Positions 10,085 to 61,100 of a DNA stretch of 64,000 nt are shown here, one piece after another. Below the pieces are notes generated by a model. It was not told the origin of the DNA and ran no database searches. It worked only from the letters and a program-made list of their open reading frames with translations. The position numbers were made by a program, and so were the translations under genes. The DNA comes from Membranipora membranacea. Taxonomy: Eukaryota; Bryozoa; Gymnolaemata; Cheilostomatida; Membraniporidae. Location: positions 7,254,001-7,318,000 of the forward strand of contig OU612073.1 in NCBI GenBank assembly GCA_914767715.1, written 5' to 3'. The number at the start of each line of letters is the position of its first letter. Position 1 is the first letter of the stretch.

Positions 10085-13000
10085 CTAATGCGTGGCTATC
10101 GTTGGGTTAGGTGTCGGGCCGTGGGGAGGCTGCTGTTGCTGCTGCTGCTGATGTGACTGCTGCTGCTGGGATGGTTGTTGTTGCTGGGGAGGCTGACTTG
10201 CTAAGCCCTGTGTCCTCTCCTCTAACTTACTGTATTCTAGGTGTAGCTCCTTAAGTACCTGAGACATAACATTACGGAGATGTAAAATAGCGCAAGGATG
10301 ATCTAGCTTTGAACTATGGGCAATGCTACTATATGTGACCAAGACAATTCACCTCCTCCCACACAAGAATGAAGTGACTAATGAAATACTGGCTATATTT
10401 AACTCGGCAACCAGCACCAGTCATTAAGGGACAAGATAACATGGAAAATCGATTATCAGTGTGCAAAGATAATTTCATTAGACAATAGTTGGAATAGTTT
10501 AAGCATTCAAACCCTGTGGGTTTAGCTGGTAATAGAATTCCATTATCAACCACAGGGTGAGGAAAGTGGTTGACAATGGGATACTACTGCAAGTCATCCC
10601 GGCAATGTTTGAGCGCTTAAACAATGGCTAGCAATGCCACACGGGTTAAAGCTATATTTGCGCCTCCCCATATTTGGTATCATATTGAAGATCGCTCTTC
10701 AACATGTAAAGATGAAGAGAGGACAACCTTAGTGGTTGAGAAAAATTGGAAAAATTTTGATTTCAGTAAAGCTAACGGTTTCAACTGTGTCCATAGGCTA
10801 CTCAAAAGGTTGCCATGGTGGTCTTAATTAGACTGAGACCTTCAATATGATGTCAAATATGGGAAGGCGCAACTGTACTTTAAAGATAAAGAAGGCACTA
10901 ACCTTCCTCCAACTCTGAGGGTTAAAGACATAGTAGTGGCCTCTCTCGTAGGTGTTTGTTTTGATTTGAGGGTCCATACCAGGTGCTCTAGTTATCCAAA
11001 CTTGTTCTTCCTTATGATACCTCCAGTCTCTGTTATATCTATATAATAGAAACGGAAGCTCCTATATTTCTTTGACCCTTTTTTTAATACATTTCATTGA
11101 CCGCCATAAACTTCGCATTCTGCCAAATTTTTTCGAGAAGTTAACAGTCAGATCGGTCAGTAGGTCGAGAAAAAGTGAGGTGGAAAGTGTCAATACGATC
11201 GCATGAAGTGTCTATTTATATTATACATCGTTCATACAGTATACATTGTTCATTGTAATATTGAATCCATACAGAATCATATTGTCAATGGTGTGAGCAC
11301 CTAGCATTGATTGTTAATAAGTCAGATTTATACTAAACCGGTGCAGGCGAGTTCCAACGTTGAATGAGCTACAGTAGGTTGGGACCAATCAGACGTTCTC
11401 CTGAATAACAAGGCCCATTTCTTATTTTCTAATACTGGATCCATTAGGAATGATAATGTTATTAGTGCAAGCACCAAGTATTATTTCATAAAGAAACAGA
11501 TTTATACTAAACCAGAACAGGCAAATTCTAACAACAATTGATCTACAAGCAGGTGGGGACGAATCAGACTAATAAGAACTGTCTCTACTCACAATTCTGA
11601 TGAAGCAGCCATCTGAAGCACATCTCCGGGGTTTGTATAGAATAAATAGAAGAGCAGGTCTTCTCCGTACTTGTTTAGTTTGATAGGCGACAGCTTTTCT
11701 CTTATGAATGTGTTGGTCAGGTATTCTGTGGGTACATGATAGTCTATATCCTGTGGCCTACACGGACTCTCAGCCCACGGAGACTGAAACGTACTGTACA
11801 ATGGTCTGTGGACAACAAGAAATAAAAATGATCATCTTCACCTTGGAGCGTCTACACTAGATCAATTTTGGTCCATTTGCCTGCATTTGTAGTTTCTCCC
11901 GATCCACTTATCACGCCTGGGGCATGACCAGTGGAGGGCAGCAACTGGAATGCAGGCGATTGGATTTAACTTGATCTAGCCTACACTGTGGAATTGTGGA
12001 ATGAGGCACATAACAACTAAAAGGGACATAATCAATGGTCTGTGAAAGAATAAAAATAAATGATCATTCGTATCTCTGAGCCACACTGCTCGCAGATTGA
12101 CCCCGAGATACAGGTCTCTCTGCACAGTGCTAAAAATGATCCCTTTTGACCCATTTACAATTTGCATATAGAAGTTAACTTTTTCCCAGGGAGGGTGGGG
12201 CGATTTTTAGTTTGGGAACTCAAGCAAATTTGGATTAATCCAAATGCGACGGTGCAAAGATAACCAACCTGAACTGATTGGTTGGACATGGGGGAAGTGT
12301 TTCTGAACACAATATGGCATTGCGGACTGGGGTACATAACCAACGAGAGGTAAACAATTAATAGCTCTTGCGAACTTCATCTATATTAGGGAAGTACAAC
12401 CTATTAAAGTGAATGGAAATCAATGGTATTGTATAAGGTACTGCAGAATACTGTGGGTTGTACTGCCACATCATATATAAATGGGTTATGCATCTCAAAA
12501 GAGCCTTACTCGAGAGAGTTTAAGTTGAGCCCAAGCGAGGTTAGGTCTACACCGGGAGCTAAAGCCACTAGATTGGCGTCTGTCTCCGCCGCTCTGATAA
12601 ATGTTAACAACCCGATCATACCAAACTGATCGGTAACCATTCCCGCTGGAATATTTGTAACTGTACCTGTAAATAGGTAAAAAAGTTGTACAAGTGAATT
12701 TCATTGTCAGTTGTCTGCTCATTGAATATATTTTAATATGGTTGAACAACTCCAAAATAATAAGGTTTCCTGATCAGCATTACCTTAGAGGAGTAAATGT
12801 TCAAATGAGGTTGAGTAAATGTAACCGGGCCTTAAATTCGCGTAAAATATTGTTCTTTCCCTTCTGTGAAAACGATACCTCTCTAGGGTATAACCAACGA
12901 TAGACAATAATAGATTGATTGATCATGACATAACTAGTCAGTATATTGGCTTACCATCAGGTAAACTTTGTACCCCCTTCTGTGGTTTTTGTTCTGACCG

Positions 13001-26200: not shown

Positions 26201-29200
26201 TAAAAAGGTTTATATTTGGGTTTGTGAAGTACATCGATATTTTCAACTCTATACTCATAATCACTGTCCACTTTTTCTTTATACTTGTTATGGTGACATG
26301 ATAATTGTTTAGTAAAAAAAAATTTTTTGTTATGTGCTAAAAGCGGAAAAAGAAAATACTTGTATGTGTTTTGAGCTAATAAATGTTTTCTTCTGGTTTC
26401 AGTGTAAACCGTTGAACGGATTCGGATTCCAGCGAGGTGGGTATATATGCGAGTGTAGACCAAACTACAGATACCCTGAGTATATACAGGGACCTTATCT
26501 GGGTGTAGCTATAGAGAGAGCTACTGAAGAGGAGCACAAGGCTGGATTCCATTGCATAAAGAGTGAAGGTGAGCTTCACATTGACGTCGAGACTACACTA
26601 TTAACATCTGCATCTCTGATCGTTAGAGTAAATTTAGTATGAGTACCTAGCATGTTCCCGCCCCTAATTAATACAATTTCCCTTTGGTGGTACTCATGCT
26701 AAGTGAATTAGTTCACTCTCTATCGATCAGAGATATACATGCAATAGTATATTACATCATCAGTGTGGGTGAGGTTGTTCACCATATGTGTCATATCACA
26801 ATAATGAACTCTTTTTGCTTGTATTCGAGTTGCTCCCCCTCTTTCTGATAGCTTATTTTATCAGTAAAGGGTAGCAACTCTGAATACGAGAAAATTGAAT
26901 TAATCTTAATGAACCGGTGAATTGACCTAGTGCCAAACATGCAAACAACTCATTCTTATTAGTCAGATCTATTTTAGGCGTCTGAAAAATTGTATATTTA
27001 AATGTCACTCTTGATTACCTGGATATACGATGAGTTCTTTACAATACACATGTATTACATTGTTATTGTAGATTTGTTTGTGGTACCGGAGTATAACTCA
27101 GAAGTAGGAGATAACTCTGGTATTGACAGACTGCCCGGTAGTACATCCAACAGGAAGAAAAGAGAGGTCAGTAACATGGGGTATCGCACTTCGTTTGTCT
27201 TGGCATCTGTATCATTTTCAAGAAAATGCTTTTCGAAAGTGCCATTAAATAAAAAAACTTATATGGGTGACACAAAAAAATATGATTGAATGGTTATAGA
27301 TTTTTATTGTAGCATATAGCATTGTAGCAATTTTAGTAATTAGGGGCGGGGGCTTGTTAGGTACTCATACTAAATTGACTCTAACGATCAGAGATACATA
27401 ACATAGTAGTGTAGTCTCGATGTCAGTGTGGTCGCACATATAGGATTGCCATACTCCATCTTGGCCCATCACCATCCGTACATTATGTCATAATGGTGCA
27501 ATGTTGTTATTATTATGATATAATTGACGACACTTAGGTATTCAATTGCTTGTTCAGCAATACATAATGGCTCAACATAAACAAAAACAAAATTTTGATT
27601 CTGCTAAAAGAGGTTTAATTAATGAAATTTTGGTCAATAATATTCCACAAATATAATATACATTAATTTTCGTGTTAACCCAGCCAGTGATGACATTTTA
27701 TAAGTCATAAATGATAATAATAATAATATGAATTTAATTGAATTGATCAGTGCAGGGAAGCAAATAAGATCACGTTTTACAATCTGGGTTTTAAAACAGT
27801 GACTAAGAGACAAGGTAGCGAACAATGAAGAAAGGATAAAAATGGATGCTACATGTCTATACACAAAAATGAAAAGATTTTGTTCTTCATTTTAGGCTGA
27901 AGTGGCACATGCTGAGATGGCCGCTCGATTTGAGGATGAGGATAGAAAGAGGCGAGATGTCGATAGTATAACCAAATACTCGGACGCCAAGACACGATTC
28001 ATCCGGAGGGTCACTCCAAAAGATGTAAGTGTGGATATATAAGAAAAATCTACAAGCTTGCCCAACACAATCATTCAATGATTGGAAGAATTTATGACTC
28101 TTAATACATCCAAAAACGGATAATCAAATCCATCAATTTGGAGTATCATCATTTAATCTGGACTTAACGCTGTCTCAACATTTTTAATCAACGCATTACT
28201 TTTTTTTTAGCACACCACTGCCAGAGAAGTCAGGGAACATATGCTAAAAAAAAAAAGAGTAGCCAGTTTTAGTGATATTCCTTCGGAATTCATGGATCTT
28301 ATGGTCGAGCGTAACTCAGGTAGGTTATGATCTCCAGCTTAATTGGGTCTCACTGGAAGCATTTACTGTACATTTGTTCAGACTAATTGTCAACACTCAG
28401 AAAAAAGATAGTATGTGAGCGTTTTATTAAACTATTGTTAATTGGATGCTAAATAATATTTTGATTTGATTTTGATTGATTGATTTGTTTTTTGGTAGAT
28501 CTTGGAATGGGATGGAAGGGCAGGCAATTAGTTAGCAAGTATAAGAGGGCAGAAGAAAAGAAAGAAGCAGAATTGGACAAGAAGCTCAACAGAAAAAAAC
28601 GAACTGCATTCAGCCAAATGAGCTATGACAGGTTTGTTGGATGCTCCATAAAATTTATCAATTGTGACAACAATGACGATAAGATCTCTCGTTTTCTCAA
28701 TTGTGTCAATTAGTCAGAATTCTCAAGCACTCTATTGGATATTTGGCAAACTTAGCTAGTAGCTGATATTATTCTGTCTGAATATGAGAAACATGGTGTT
28801 TCTCTTCCAAGTCATTTGATATCTTGATCCAATGCAAAGCTCGTATTGAAGGAAGCCAACATCGATATTGGGATTTTTGAATTAGTTCCAACATGAATAG
28901 TTAAAAAACGGTACAAAAACTGACTCGGTGCAGAGGCTACTATCAAGCCAATTAGGCTGGCTGCCCAAATTTTTGCTCACAAATATATGAATACTACCCA
29001 CAGCTCACAAAGTAACTGGTCATGAAATCTTATTTATCCATTGCTTGTCTGCTTGCAGGGTCGCCAAGATATTCACACACAAGAGTCAGATGACGGCAGG
29101 TAACTGTAGAGGTTTCTCTGAAGAGCAGTGGAAGCTGCCGGGTGATGCTAAATTTGGGGTAGAGAAGAAGTTGGAGAGACTTGGGAGGCAAGGTGTCCGG

Positions 29201-52347: not shown

Positions 52348-52464
52348 TTACTCCCTGCATCCTAGGATCTCAATAACTTTTAAACTATTTCTTGAACCAT
52401 GAGGGTCATCGTTGTTTGAAGATTGGCCAAGAAACCAACTCCTAATTACATCATACCATTTGTG
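52348..52464 (-). pseudogene. Decayed sixth propeptide cassette
   Basis: Immediately after the last Lys-Arg the normal AGCACATGG has become AGCACAAATGG. This two-base gain moves the frame to a stop at 52446-52448. In the shifted frame a cassette continues: WYDVIRSWFLGQSSNNDDP, then SRNSLKVIEILGC, ending at a stop at 52348-52350. It matches the first two thirds of the unit but lacks the Arg-Arg and Lys-Arg sites. Confidence 0.75.
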
Positions 52465-53983
52465 CTTCTTTTAGAGAGCCTCGAAGGTAGGTTAGGTAAA
52501 ATGGGATCCGGCAAGCTACGCCTAATAATGGTGTTGCCTTCAATAGTATCCAGACTGTTTCTAGGTCTGTCGTTGCGGTCAGCGTCATTTGAAGATGGTG
52601 TTGTGAACCAACTTCTGACCAATTCATACCATGTGCTTCTTTTAGAAAGCCTTGATTGTTCGTCCGGTAAACTTCGCCTAATAATGGTGTTGCCTTCAAT
52701 AGCATCAAGGCTGTTTCTAGGTCTGTGATCTTGGTTATCGTCATTTGAAGATGGCGTTGTGAACCAACTTCTGACCGTGTCGTACCAAGTGCTTCTTTTA
52801 GAAAGCTTTGATTGTTTGTCCGGTAAACTTCGCCTAATGATGGTGCTACCTTCAATAGTATCCAGACTATTTCTAGGTCTGTCATTGCGGTCGACATCAG
52901 TTGAAGATGGTGCCGTGAACCAACTTCTCACTGTTTCATACCATGTGCTTCTTTTAGAAAGCCTTGATTGTTCGTCTGGTAAGCTACGCCTAATAATGGT
53001 ATTGCCTTCAATAGTATCCAGACTGTTTCTAGGTCTTTGATCTTCGTCACCATCATCTGAAGATGGCACTGTGAACCAACTTCTGACTGTTTCGTACCAT
53101 GAGCTTCTTTTAGAAAGCCTTGATTGTTCCTCCGGTAAACTTCGCCTAATAATGGTGTTGCCTTCAATAGTATCCAGACTATTTCTAGGTCTGTCATTTT
53201 TGTCATCATCATTCGAAGATGGCGTAGTGAACCAACTTCTCACTGTTTCGTACCATGTGCTTCTCTTAGAGATCTTTCCTTGTTTCTCTAAGGTGATTGG
53301 CTTAACAGTCAGCCCTCTCTCAATGATAGTCAGTCTATTACTCAGGTCCTGTTGTGATCCACCATTGTTTGATGTCTGGTCAGTGTCTGAATGACAAAAG
53401 ATAGATCATGCTTCATAATGCGCAACAGGACAATCATAAACATTCTACAGGAGGAGTCTGGACTCCCTCCAGCATTACTACAAAATGATACTTTGGTGGA
53501 TCTGTCTTCTTTTATTGCAATAAGAGGAACCCTTGTTTCAGTACTCTAGGTTTCTTGCATATAATTTATTTGCTTCCCTGTGAAGAATTTTGTCAGATAT
53601 TTTCAATTATGAGTGTTAAATGAGCTCACCTTGTTGTGAATTGATTGACTCATCTTGATATCTTGCAGGCTGTTCAACTGATAATACATGGGAATCACCT
53701 CCACCTGGTAATGGTAGGGTCATACAGCTACCAAATGTAACTGACCTGTCAAAAGGAATACAGATACAACTACGCTCTGTAATAAAAATGACCTGGAATA
53801 TTAAACAAGTTTTTTTGGATCACCTACTGTTTAAAATTGAATATTTATTCATAAAATTCAAAGTTTAGTTTGCTGCAGTGTAAAGTTTCCCGAATGAGCA
53901 TTCAATTTAAGTAGTGAACCTATATTTATTTGAAAAACTTACCACATTAGAAGATACATAGCTGCTTTACTCAATTTATTCAT
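52446..53983 (-). CDS. Multi-copy secreted propeptide precursor, novel
   Basis: Three exons, 53983-53943, 53745-53630 and 53386-52446, join in frame to about 365 residues. The start MNKLSKAAMYLLMWSVTFGS is a good signal peptide whose hydrophobic core is split by intron 1. After a polar spacer of about 75 residues, a Lys-Arg site opens five tandem cassettes of 52 residues (156 bases). Each reads S-T-W-Y-E-T-V-R-S-W-F-T, then an acidic Asn/Asp stretch, then RPRNSLDTIEGNTIIRR, then SLPDEQSRLSKR. Every unit therefore carries an internal Arg-Arg and a terminal Lys-Arg, as in prohormone-convertase substrates. Processing would release a peptide of about 38 residues and one of about 10 from each cassette. 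No Gly precedes the basic sites, so amidation is not predicted. The last cassette has an expanded spacer (PILPNLP) and ends six residues after its Lys-Arg through a frameshift. I recognise no family. Alternatives are an antimicrobial polyprotein or a secreted repetitive structural protein. Confidence 0.8.
52465..53262 (-). repeat. Tandem 156-base coding repeat of the propeptide gene
   Basis: Five head-to-tail copies of a 156-base unit inside exon 3, nearly identical at DNA level over the segment encoding RPRNSLD through IIRRSLP and more variable over the acidic stretch. Because the unit is a multiple of three, all copies keep the frame. Both antisense frames stay partly open, which produces shadow ORFs on the plus strand. 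Confidence 0.9.
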
Positions 53984-58180: not shown

Positions 58181-61100
58181 CTAGCTGTCCAATGTCATAT
58201 CCTTGAATAGTCTAGGAAATTGGACATAGTCTTCTATAAATTTAGCAGTGTTAAGTAGAGTATGTTCATCAAAGTGAGATGTTATCAGCTGCATGCTAAG
58301 AGGTAGGTTATCTTCAGATAGACGTACTGGTATGGATATAGCTGGTATACCTACAACAGTCACAACCATTGATATGAATTCATGAATCAGTGGTAAAATG
58401 CACAGTATGGCTATGTAATTGGATCTAGCTAAAATTCTGGCAGCCTTAACATTATGCATAGACTGACGTCTCGGTAACAACCTTAAAAAGTCAGGCAAGC
58501 TACTTGACAAAAGTTTTTAAGGGGTCAGCTGTAGCATTAACGAAATTTTAGACCAATCAAAGATGAGCAAATGTCTCCAGCAACCATACATAAATTGACA
58601 TATGCTTGTTCAAGGTCAGAATTTATAACAGTGTTCACAACCATCAAATATATCTTTCGGCAACTGAGAATAAATGTAGTGGGAAATAATATTTTGATAT
58701 TTGTTGTGAAACAAATATTTCTATCTATTACCTTACCCTCACAGATTAAAATTGAGTGAACTTGTCTTGAATGGCTGATTTCATTGGTTCAAATAATAAG
58801 CGAGTTTCGATTTTTTGAAATTACCTTACATAAGCTATCTTTGGGAAAGTTGCATAAGTCAAAATGCGAATGCCATGAAAATTTCATCATGTATGGTATC
58901 AAATATGATAACTAAAGGGGATACATTAATTAGGGTGTTGTCAAAGTTTTGGCCAGATAAAGATGAATTGCATGGTTAGCTAATAAAACAAGGCTCCAAA
59001 AAATGAGTTGTATAACCGGAATATTACCGGAATAAAATACTTCATAGTGTTAATAAAAATTTAATTAAATTAACGCACCGCTAATCTGAGGTCATTCCTT
59101 AATGGCGCAAATGACCCCATTTTTTAAATTTCGAAAATTTGTAGATATTAGTTCCGGTTTTTCTTTGCAAAGTTCTCAATAAGCAAGAGCGCCAATGTGT
59201 GCCGTGGAAAGAAAATTGATCATTTATAATCAATGTAAAAACCAATAAATCACTGTAATTTCCATAGTTGAGATCTGCTGTGTCCCCATTGTATGAATGC
59301 TGCTTTCAGCAGTGAAGGGGATTTACCATTTATGGGTTTTTAGATTTACTTTTTATAACCAATTTTCTTTCCACAGCACATGTCGGCTTTTGCCAAATGA
59401 AAGCCATAAACGGAATTTCAGCAACCGAAAATTTCTTATATTTTGACCTATGAATTCAGCTAGTATTGTCCAGCTGGTCTATTTTTGAAACAGAGTGACT
59501 TAAAAGACAGGAATTTGAGCCAAGTGAAAGTAATGATTCAATAAAAAAACATTTCACTAAATATAATCTATACGTCCTCTGCCATGAAGTAGGAATGAAT
59601 GATTAAAGGCTTAATTTTTTTTTTATAACTGAATCTATAAGAGAGTGAATTACTCACACATTTTCTCAACACATATTTGAATACTCAATTAATCTTTAAT
59701 CACTATTATTTAATAATAATAGGCAAAAGCGCTGACATGTGCTGTGGAAAGAAAATTAATCATTAATTTAATATCTCATTGTTGAGAGCTACTGCGTATG
59801 GGATTTTACATTGATTATTTATAAACGATTTTTGGTCCACAGCACATGTCGGCACGTTTGCCAATTGCATTTTGAATTCTTAAATTAATCTTTAATCACT
59901 TTACTTTAATAATAATTTGATCAAAATTATTTGGGAATTCCCACCAATATAATATTCAATACTGACCGGCGAGATTGACAGGTAAAGTGAAGCAGTCTTG
60001 TAGGGCACACTGAGTTCTGTTATCCAGCTGTCTAAACTCAGAATAAAGCTGTGCCTGGCTGATGGTAGTCGGTGTTAAAAGTACATCTACGCTTTTGAAT
60101 ACCTTAACAAAGTCATCATGTATCAACCGCCGTACTTTGGCAGCTTTGAGATAATACTTCTCATAATTCCTAAAAGAGAATAAAATGGAACAGATCAGGG
60201 GGTCTTTCAATTAGACAAAATCTCTCGCTCACTAAGAATGTGTATAGTTCCATCAATGAGTGAGTGATTTCTGAGCGACACCCTAGCAGGTATCACTCAC
60301 TCATTGAGTGAGCAATCAGATTTCGATTTTGGATTTTTTTGATTTGAAGACCCCACATGATCATGTTTGTAATTATGATTACAAACATTCTAACCATTTC
60401 TTTTAATTTTTATACCAAGGGGCCACAAAAGTGCCGAAATGGACTCATTCTGATGATGCGCTGAGTGGAGGGTAAGCTGCCTTGACAAGTTATGTTAGTT
60501 TGTTGCAGGGTTGATTCCCTTGCCACAAAAACAACAGGACATCCCAGAACTGACTATGCTGTTGTTTTGGGCTTTACCATAGATAGAGAGCATCATTGAA
60601 TGAGTAATTCCAAGTTTAATGGCAGCTGATTTGTGGGGAAAACGCGAACTAGAAGGTTTTTTATGAGGAAATTTTGTTTGTTCTTCAATTAGTTTTCTCT
60701 ACTACAGTATGTGTCAATTCAATTTCATTTATCAAAGTGAGGCTCTCAAGTAAGTTTCCAGCTGTCATGCATTGCTTTTACTTTAACCCTAGGAGATAGG
60801 GCAGTCACGCCCCGTCAAGCAGTTGTAGGCAATCATTTTGAACCAAACTATCCTCTTTTTCCAGTTGAACCTGATACCACTCACTTTCTTAGTAAAAAAT
60901 AGTTCCCAGCAAAGATTCTGCTTCTGACAACATCACTCAGAGCTTCATGTCTTGTTTGAGCGTATAAAGCTTCAGTTGAGATATCAGTGTCTGCTCTGTG
61001 CCCTACAGAATAGAGAGTGTGGGTTGAATAAAATCAAGTTGTCATATCGCATGCCACATCCCGAAGCATGAAGCAAAATATTAGTTGTAAATGTAAATCA

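Follow-up and report, generated by a model that had tools for sequence, protein, structure and literature searches.

Peptide precursors of the pedal peptide/orcokinin type, described from molluscs, annelids, arthropods, echinoderms and Bugula neritina, have a layout in common, in which similar peptides lie between dibasic sites behind a signal peptide. The Aplysia pedal peptide, according to the source passages used here, is non-amidated and occurs in 17 copies in one precursor. Another group, myoinhibitory peptide/allatostatin B, is recognized by the motif Wx6Wamide, and new neuropeptide-like families of comparable build turn up fairly often. Work on nemerteans, brachiopods and phoronids names, in the portion drawn on here, lineage-specific spiralian proneuropeptides (for example, the nemertean WWS, DMF and AGEamide precursors; PMC8557429). 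Here, we describe a gene in a 64,000-nucleotide stretch of DNA (the window) whose layout, copy number, reading frame and site-by-site constraint make it likely a multi-copy peptide precursor, found once in its apparently protostome genome, that would be secreted, cut at Lys-Arg (KR) and Arg-Arg (RR) and act through a receptor.

Results

The gene lies on the minus strand, where three exons, from 53983 to 52446, join in frame to encode a 365-residue protein (Table 1). The model put forward in the initial annotation was recovered at exactly these coordinates, with both introns bounded by GT..AG and the frame kept across them. Three-exon models joining exon 3 were enumerated over 3 kb upstream and kept if a crude rule (hydropathy, with a threshold of 1.6, plus the −3/−1 rule) scored their N terminus as signal-like. 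The model in Table 1 had the top splice score (29.7) among the 13 upstream models that passed this filter; the top score from 30 shuffled upstream regions, 14 of which gave no model, was 22.9. It just meets the hydropathy threshold and 12 other upstream models pass too; alternative exon 2 ends and first exons are possible. By the hydropathy and −3/−1 rule, the N terminus is plausibly a signal peptide, and the crudeness of that rule, with its threshold just reached, weighs against reading the gene as a precursor.

Table 1 Exons and repeat cassettes of the putative precursor gene (positions are those of the window).
Feature	Position	Strand	Content	Remark
Exon 1	53943..53983	-	Start codon; first half of the putative signal peptide (MNKLSKAAMYLLM); W codon split by intron	In top-scoring model
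Exon 2	53630..53745	-	End of the putative signal peptide (SVTFGSC) and N-terminal propeptide	In top-scoring model; alternative exon 2 ends score lower
Exon 3	52446..53386	-	Remaining propeptide; all five cassettes; TAA stop codon (52448-52446)	
Cassette 1	53106..53261	-	52 residues	
Cassette 2	52950..53105	-	52 residues	
Cassette 3	52794..52949	-	52 residues	
Cassette 4	52638..52793	-	52 residues	
Cassette 5	52467..52637	-	57 residues	Altered tail
Sixth cassette remnant	52369..52479	-	In frame at start (LSKRST), out of frame beyond stop; one stop	54% identity to cassette 4; E 0.0024 in genome protein search

The protein carries five cassettes, as had been reported, although the uniform length of 52 residues ascribed to them applies to four, the fifth having 57 residues, where SLPDPILPNLPSRLSKR replaces SLPDEQSRLSKR. 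Tandem Repeats Finder independently delimited the array (period 156, 4.9 copies, 85% matches, score 1115, at 52507-53270). The internal IIRR described earlier is present in all five cassettes and KR closes each of them; the RLSKR ending attributed to every cassette narrows to LSKR, cassette 3 terminating in KLSKR. Dibasic cassettes in five of five copies after a signal-like start support the multi-copy precursor layout proposed initially, and the two products predicted at that time were recovered to different extents, the 38-residue product in all five cassettes and the 10-residue product in cassettes 1-4 only. No glycine precedes any dibasic site, so the predicted products would not be amidated, and the cassettes contain no cysteine; a linear 38-mer with neither cysteines nor amidation is long for such precursors, which tells against the precursor reading.

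Constraint among the five copies, calculated block by block after removal of the codons inserted in cassette 5, was unevenly distributed: pN/pS was 0.12 for block A (cassette residues 1-12, STWYETVRSWFT, directly after KR), 0.65 for the acidic linker (residues 13-23), 0.08 for block B (residues 24-40, RPRNSLDTIEGNTIIRR) and 0.12 for the cassette tail (residues 41-52), while the dibasic sites are invariant in all five. The low values in blocks A and B, next to a loose linker, indicate that the two blocks are kept, as are the KR and RR sites, while the linker drifts. The motif W-Y-[ED]-x-V-R-S-W-F-T after Lys-Arg, previously singled out as the most conserved part, is a real block found in every copy, but RPRNSLDTIEGNTIIRR is at least as constrained (0.08 versus 0.12). 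Across four cassettes, pN/pS was 0.28 in the coding frame, compared with 1.29 and 1.99 in the remaining two same-strand frames and 1.14, 0.31 and 1.20 in the three opposite-strand frames (the frame with 0.31 is broken by two stops), with all of these ratios to be read as pairwise comparisons among copies that are not independent and that gene conversion can homogenize within a gene, a point that also counts against the precursor reading. A dibasic-repeat scan of 264 kb (the window and 100 kb of flank on either side; ORFs of at least 80 amino acids) for at least three similar post-dibasic segments returned 1 of 337 ORFs, the precursor gene itself, and none of 887 ORFs in five shuffles.

These patterns bear on three other accounts of the gene. 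One is a repetitive secreted protein of structural, adhesive or mucus type, a kind known to have tandem repeats and linkers rich in Ser/Asp/Asn, with dibasic sites that go unused; we consider this improbable, given dibasic sites that are invariant in five of five copies while the linker drifts, a repeat number of only five and cassettes devoid of cysteine. Antimicrobial precursors with tandem dibasic cassettes are also known, and a structure model of one cassette placed a helix at residues 2-11, within block A, and two short strands at residues 30-39, at low confidence (mean pLDDT 64, pTM 0.20). The predicted 38-residue product has a net charge of −2 to −5 in all five copies, however, and this acidity argues against an antimicrobial role, which was rejected on that ground and has very little probability left. 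Equally slight is the chance that the gene was inactivated recently, with the loss of frame beyond the stop in the sixth cassette as a sign of decay: the five preceding cassettes are open, and the differences in blocks A and B are mostly silent. A secreted multi-copy precursor is the reading that we favour.

Searches of the precursor gene against Pfam (7 rows, led by DRC7_C, DUF3841 and DUF5888), NCBIfam (2) and PHROG (6) gave no convincing domain; the rows were weak and mostly on short repeat stretches (DRC7_C, at 28.8 bits, lay just above its cut-off of 28), and all were judged chance or repeat-driven. A PDB search returned two peroxiredoxin chains at E 0.32 and nothing else. Sequence strings from blocks A and B were absent from the literature text searched (figures and supplements lay outside that search), and the same text search found no relative of block A. 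The initial annotation knew no family with the aromatic motif. Block B, RPRNSLDTIEGNTIIRR, is weakly pedal peptide/orcokinin-like.

That likeness was scored against nine family peptides (six Bugula peptides out of the nine listed in Table 2 of PMC4990251, and three from the part of PMC5656890 used here). The 12-residue NSLDTIEGNTII within block B reached its top score, 22, with bryozoan BnPep P2 (YLERIGSGNSVI; LDTI-EGNTII / LERIGSGNSVI), a value equalled or beaten in 196 of 5,000 shuffles and obtained for a family picked after the likeness had been noticed. Against ten unrelated published peptides, its top score was 14 (reached by 2,826 of 5,000 shuffles). Block A scored 14 against the family set (668 of 5,000 shuffles), and in the same run the spacer SLPDEQSRLS reached 18 with an unrelated peptide (383 of 5,000), showing that such score levels arise by chance. 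A core pattern written for this analysis, [FL]-[DE]-x-[ILV] followed by G near a dibasic site, was found in five of five copies and had 1 unrelated match in the 38,156 residues of window ORFs of at least 40 amino acids.

It is conceivable, albeit unlikely, that the gene is a divergent precursor of the pedal peptide/orcokinin type, in which cuts at RPR and RR would release NSLDTIEGNTII as the family peptide and leave the aromatic block as a co-peptide. Block B being the most constrained block fits this idea, as does a non-amidated multi-copy layout like that of Aplysia pedal peptide. Against it, RPR is not dibasic, and peptides of about 12-20 residues directly between processing sites were not seen (the KR-to-RR distance is 38 residues, and 12 only with the RPR cut). 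The SGFx C terminus of Aplysia-type members, as given in the passages used, is also missing, with neither SGFx nor another aromatic near the C terminus of NSLDTIEGNTII; among the nine Bugula peptides tabulated in PMC4990251 (Table 2), eight, one of them partial, likewise have no aromatic there. With the family selected after the resemblance was seen, the pedal peptide likeness is a lead, not membership.

The host genome comprises 339 Mb in 18 contigs, of which 17 are nuclear and 1, contig 18, is mitochondrial. A protein search of these 339 Mb, at E up to 10, found no second gene and matched exon 3, exon 2 and the sixth cassette remnant alone. The mitochondrial genome has 14,741 bases and carries genes on both strands, in the order nad2-nad4L-nad4, cox1, nad5, nad3, cox2 and cob on one strand and nad1, atp6, nad6, rRNAs and cox3 on the other (named by eye from translations), an arrangement that matches no phylum known to us. 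Its code, judged from COX1 under the invertebrate code, reads AGR as Ser, ATA as Met and AAA as Lys; to our knowledge, this differs from the codes of cnidarians and sponges. The innexin family has 55 matching stretches in the genome, the best one nearly full length, and we know of no sponge with innexins. Together, the innexin matches and the mitochondrial code suggest a protostome host, probably a spiralian from the size of the innexin set, and leave the early-branching animal raised in the initial annotation unsupported. The molluscan haemocyanin family had no match in the genome, in a search whose controls were silent too. A new neuropeptide family is less surprising in a protostome. Had the host been a sponge, this would have been of consequence, as phoenixin and nesfatin are, to the knowledge of the authors of PMC9004410 in the part used here, the first neuropeptides identified in sponges; the host not being nerveless, the gene says nothing of how neuropeptides arose in animals that lack nerves.

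Elsewhere in the window, neighbouring features include a TRPM-like channel exon, a Methyltransf_32 exon, the C terminus of a GatA-type amidase and a weak match to a GPR158/179 ectodomain. Near the GPR158-like exons lies an inverted repeat (26577-26678 / 27329-27430; 102-base arms, 85% complementary, 650 bases apart), possibly a transposon-like element. Separately, a 121-base stretch at 11253-11547 occurs as two tandem copies, 71% alike and 174 bases apart, and is open in no frame, and direct and inverted repeats cluster at 59177-59916.

Discussion

If the gene is a precursor as its layout suggests, a signal peptide would direct the protein to the secretory pathway, where a proprotein convertase would cleave after KR and RR, leaving the basic residues to be removed by a carboxypeptidase. 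Processing of this kind would release five non-amidated 38-residue peptides, each consisting of STWYETVRSWFT, the acidic linker and RPRNSLDTIEGNTII, together with copies of a roughly 10-residue spacer; a cut at RPR, if used, would yield the 12-residue NSLDTIEGNTII. The two constrained ends would be the likely receptor-binding parts and the linker a spacer between them. More tentatively, the 38-mer might be a two-headed ligand of a new lineage-specific peptide-hormone family, with an aromatic, helix-like N-terminal head (WYETVRSWF), a variable acidic linker and a pedal peptide/orcokinin-like C-terminal head; we hold this to be a minority possibility. Were the peptides made, the protostome repertoire would gain a messenger with two separately conserved ends.

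Among known systems, the two tryptophans of WYETVRSW, six residues apart, recall myoinhibitory peptide/allatostatin B, but this stretch is not C-terminal and has no amidation glycine after it, and no dibasic site of the precursor yields the amidated C-terminal W of that family. With pedal peptide/orcokinin precursors, the gene shares the core [FL]-[DE]-x-[IL]..G in NSLDTIEGNTII and the non-amidated state of the Aplysia pedal peptide; it differs in its 52-residue unit, its 38-residue dibasic product and its lack of an SGFx ending, and sequence similarity to members is near chance level. It also has a second constrained block, the aromatic one, for which the pedal peptide/orcokinin passages used here mention no counterpart. 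In kind, it can be set beside the WWS, DMF and AGEamide precursors of nemerteans, which the portion of PMC8557429 used here presents as proneuropeptides restricted to one or two phyla. We read the gene, from its sequence, as a new lineage-specific proneuropeptide-like gene and perhaps a far relative of the pedal peptide/orcokinin type, in which case its orphan aromatic motif may be tied to that family and show how such families diverge. Set beside these systems, the gene is probably new as a family and ordinary as a kind.
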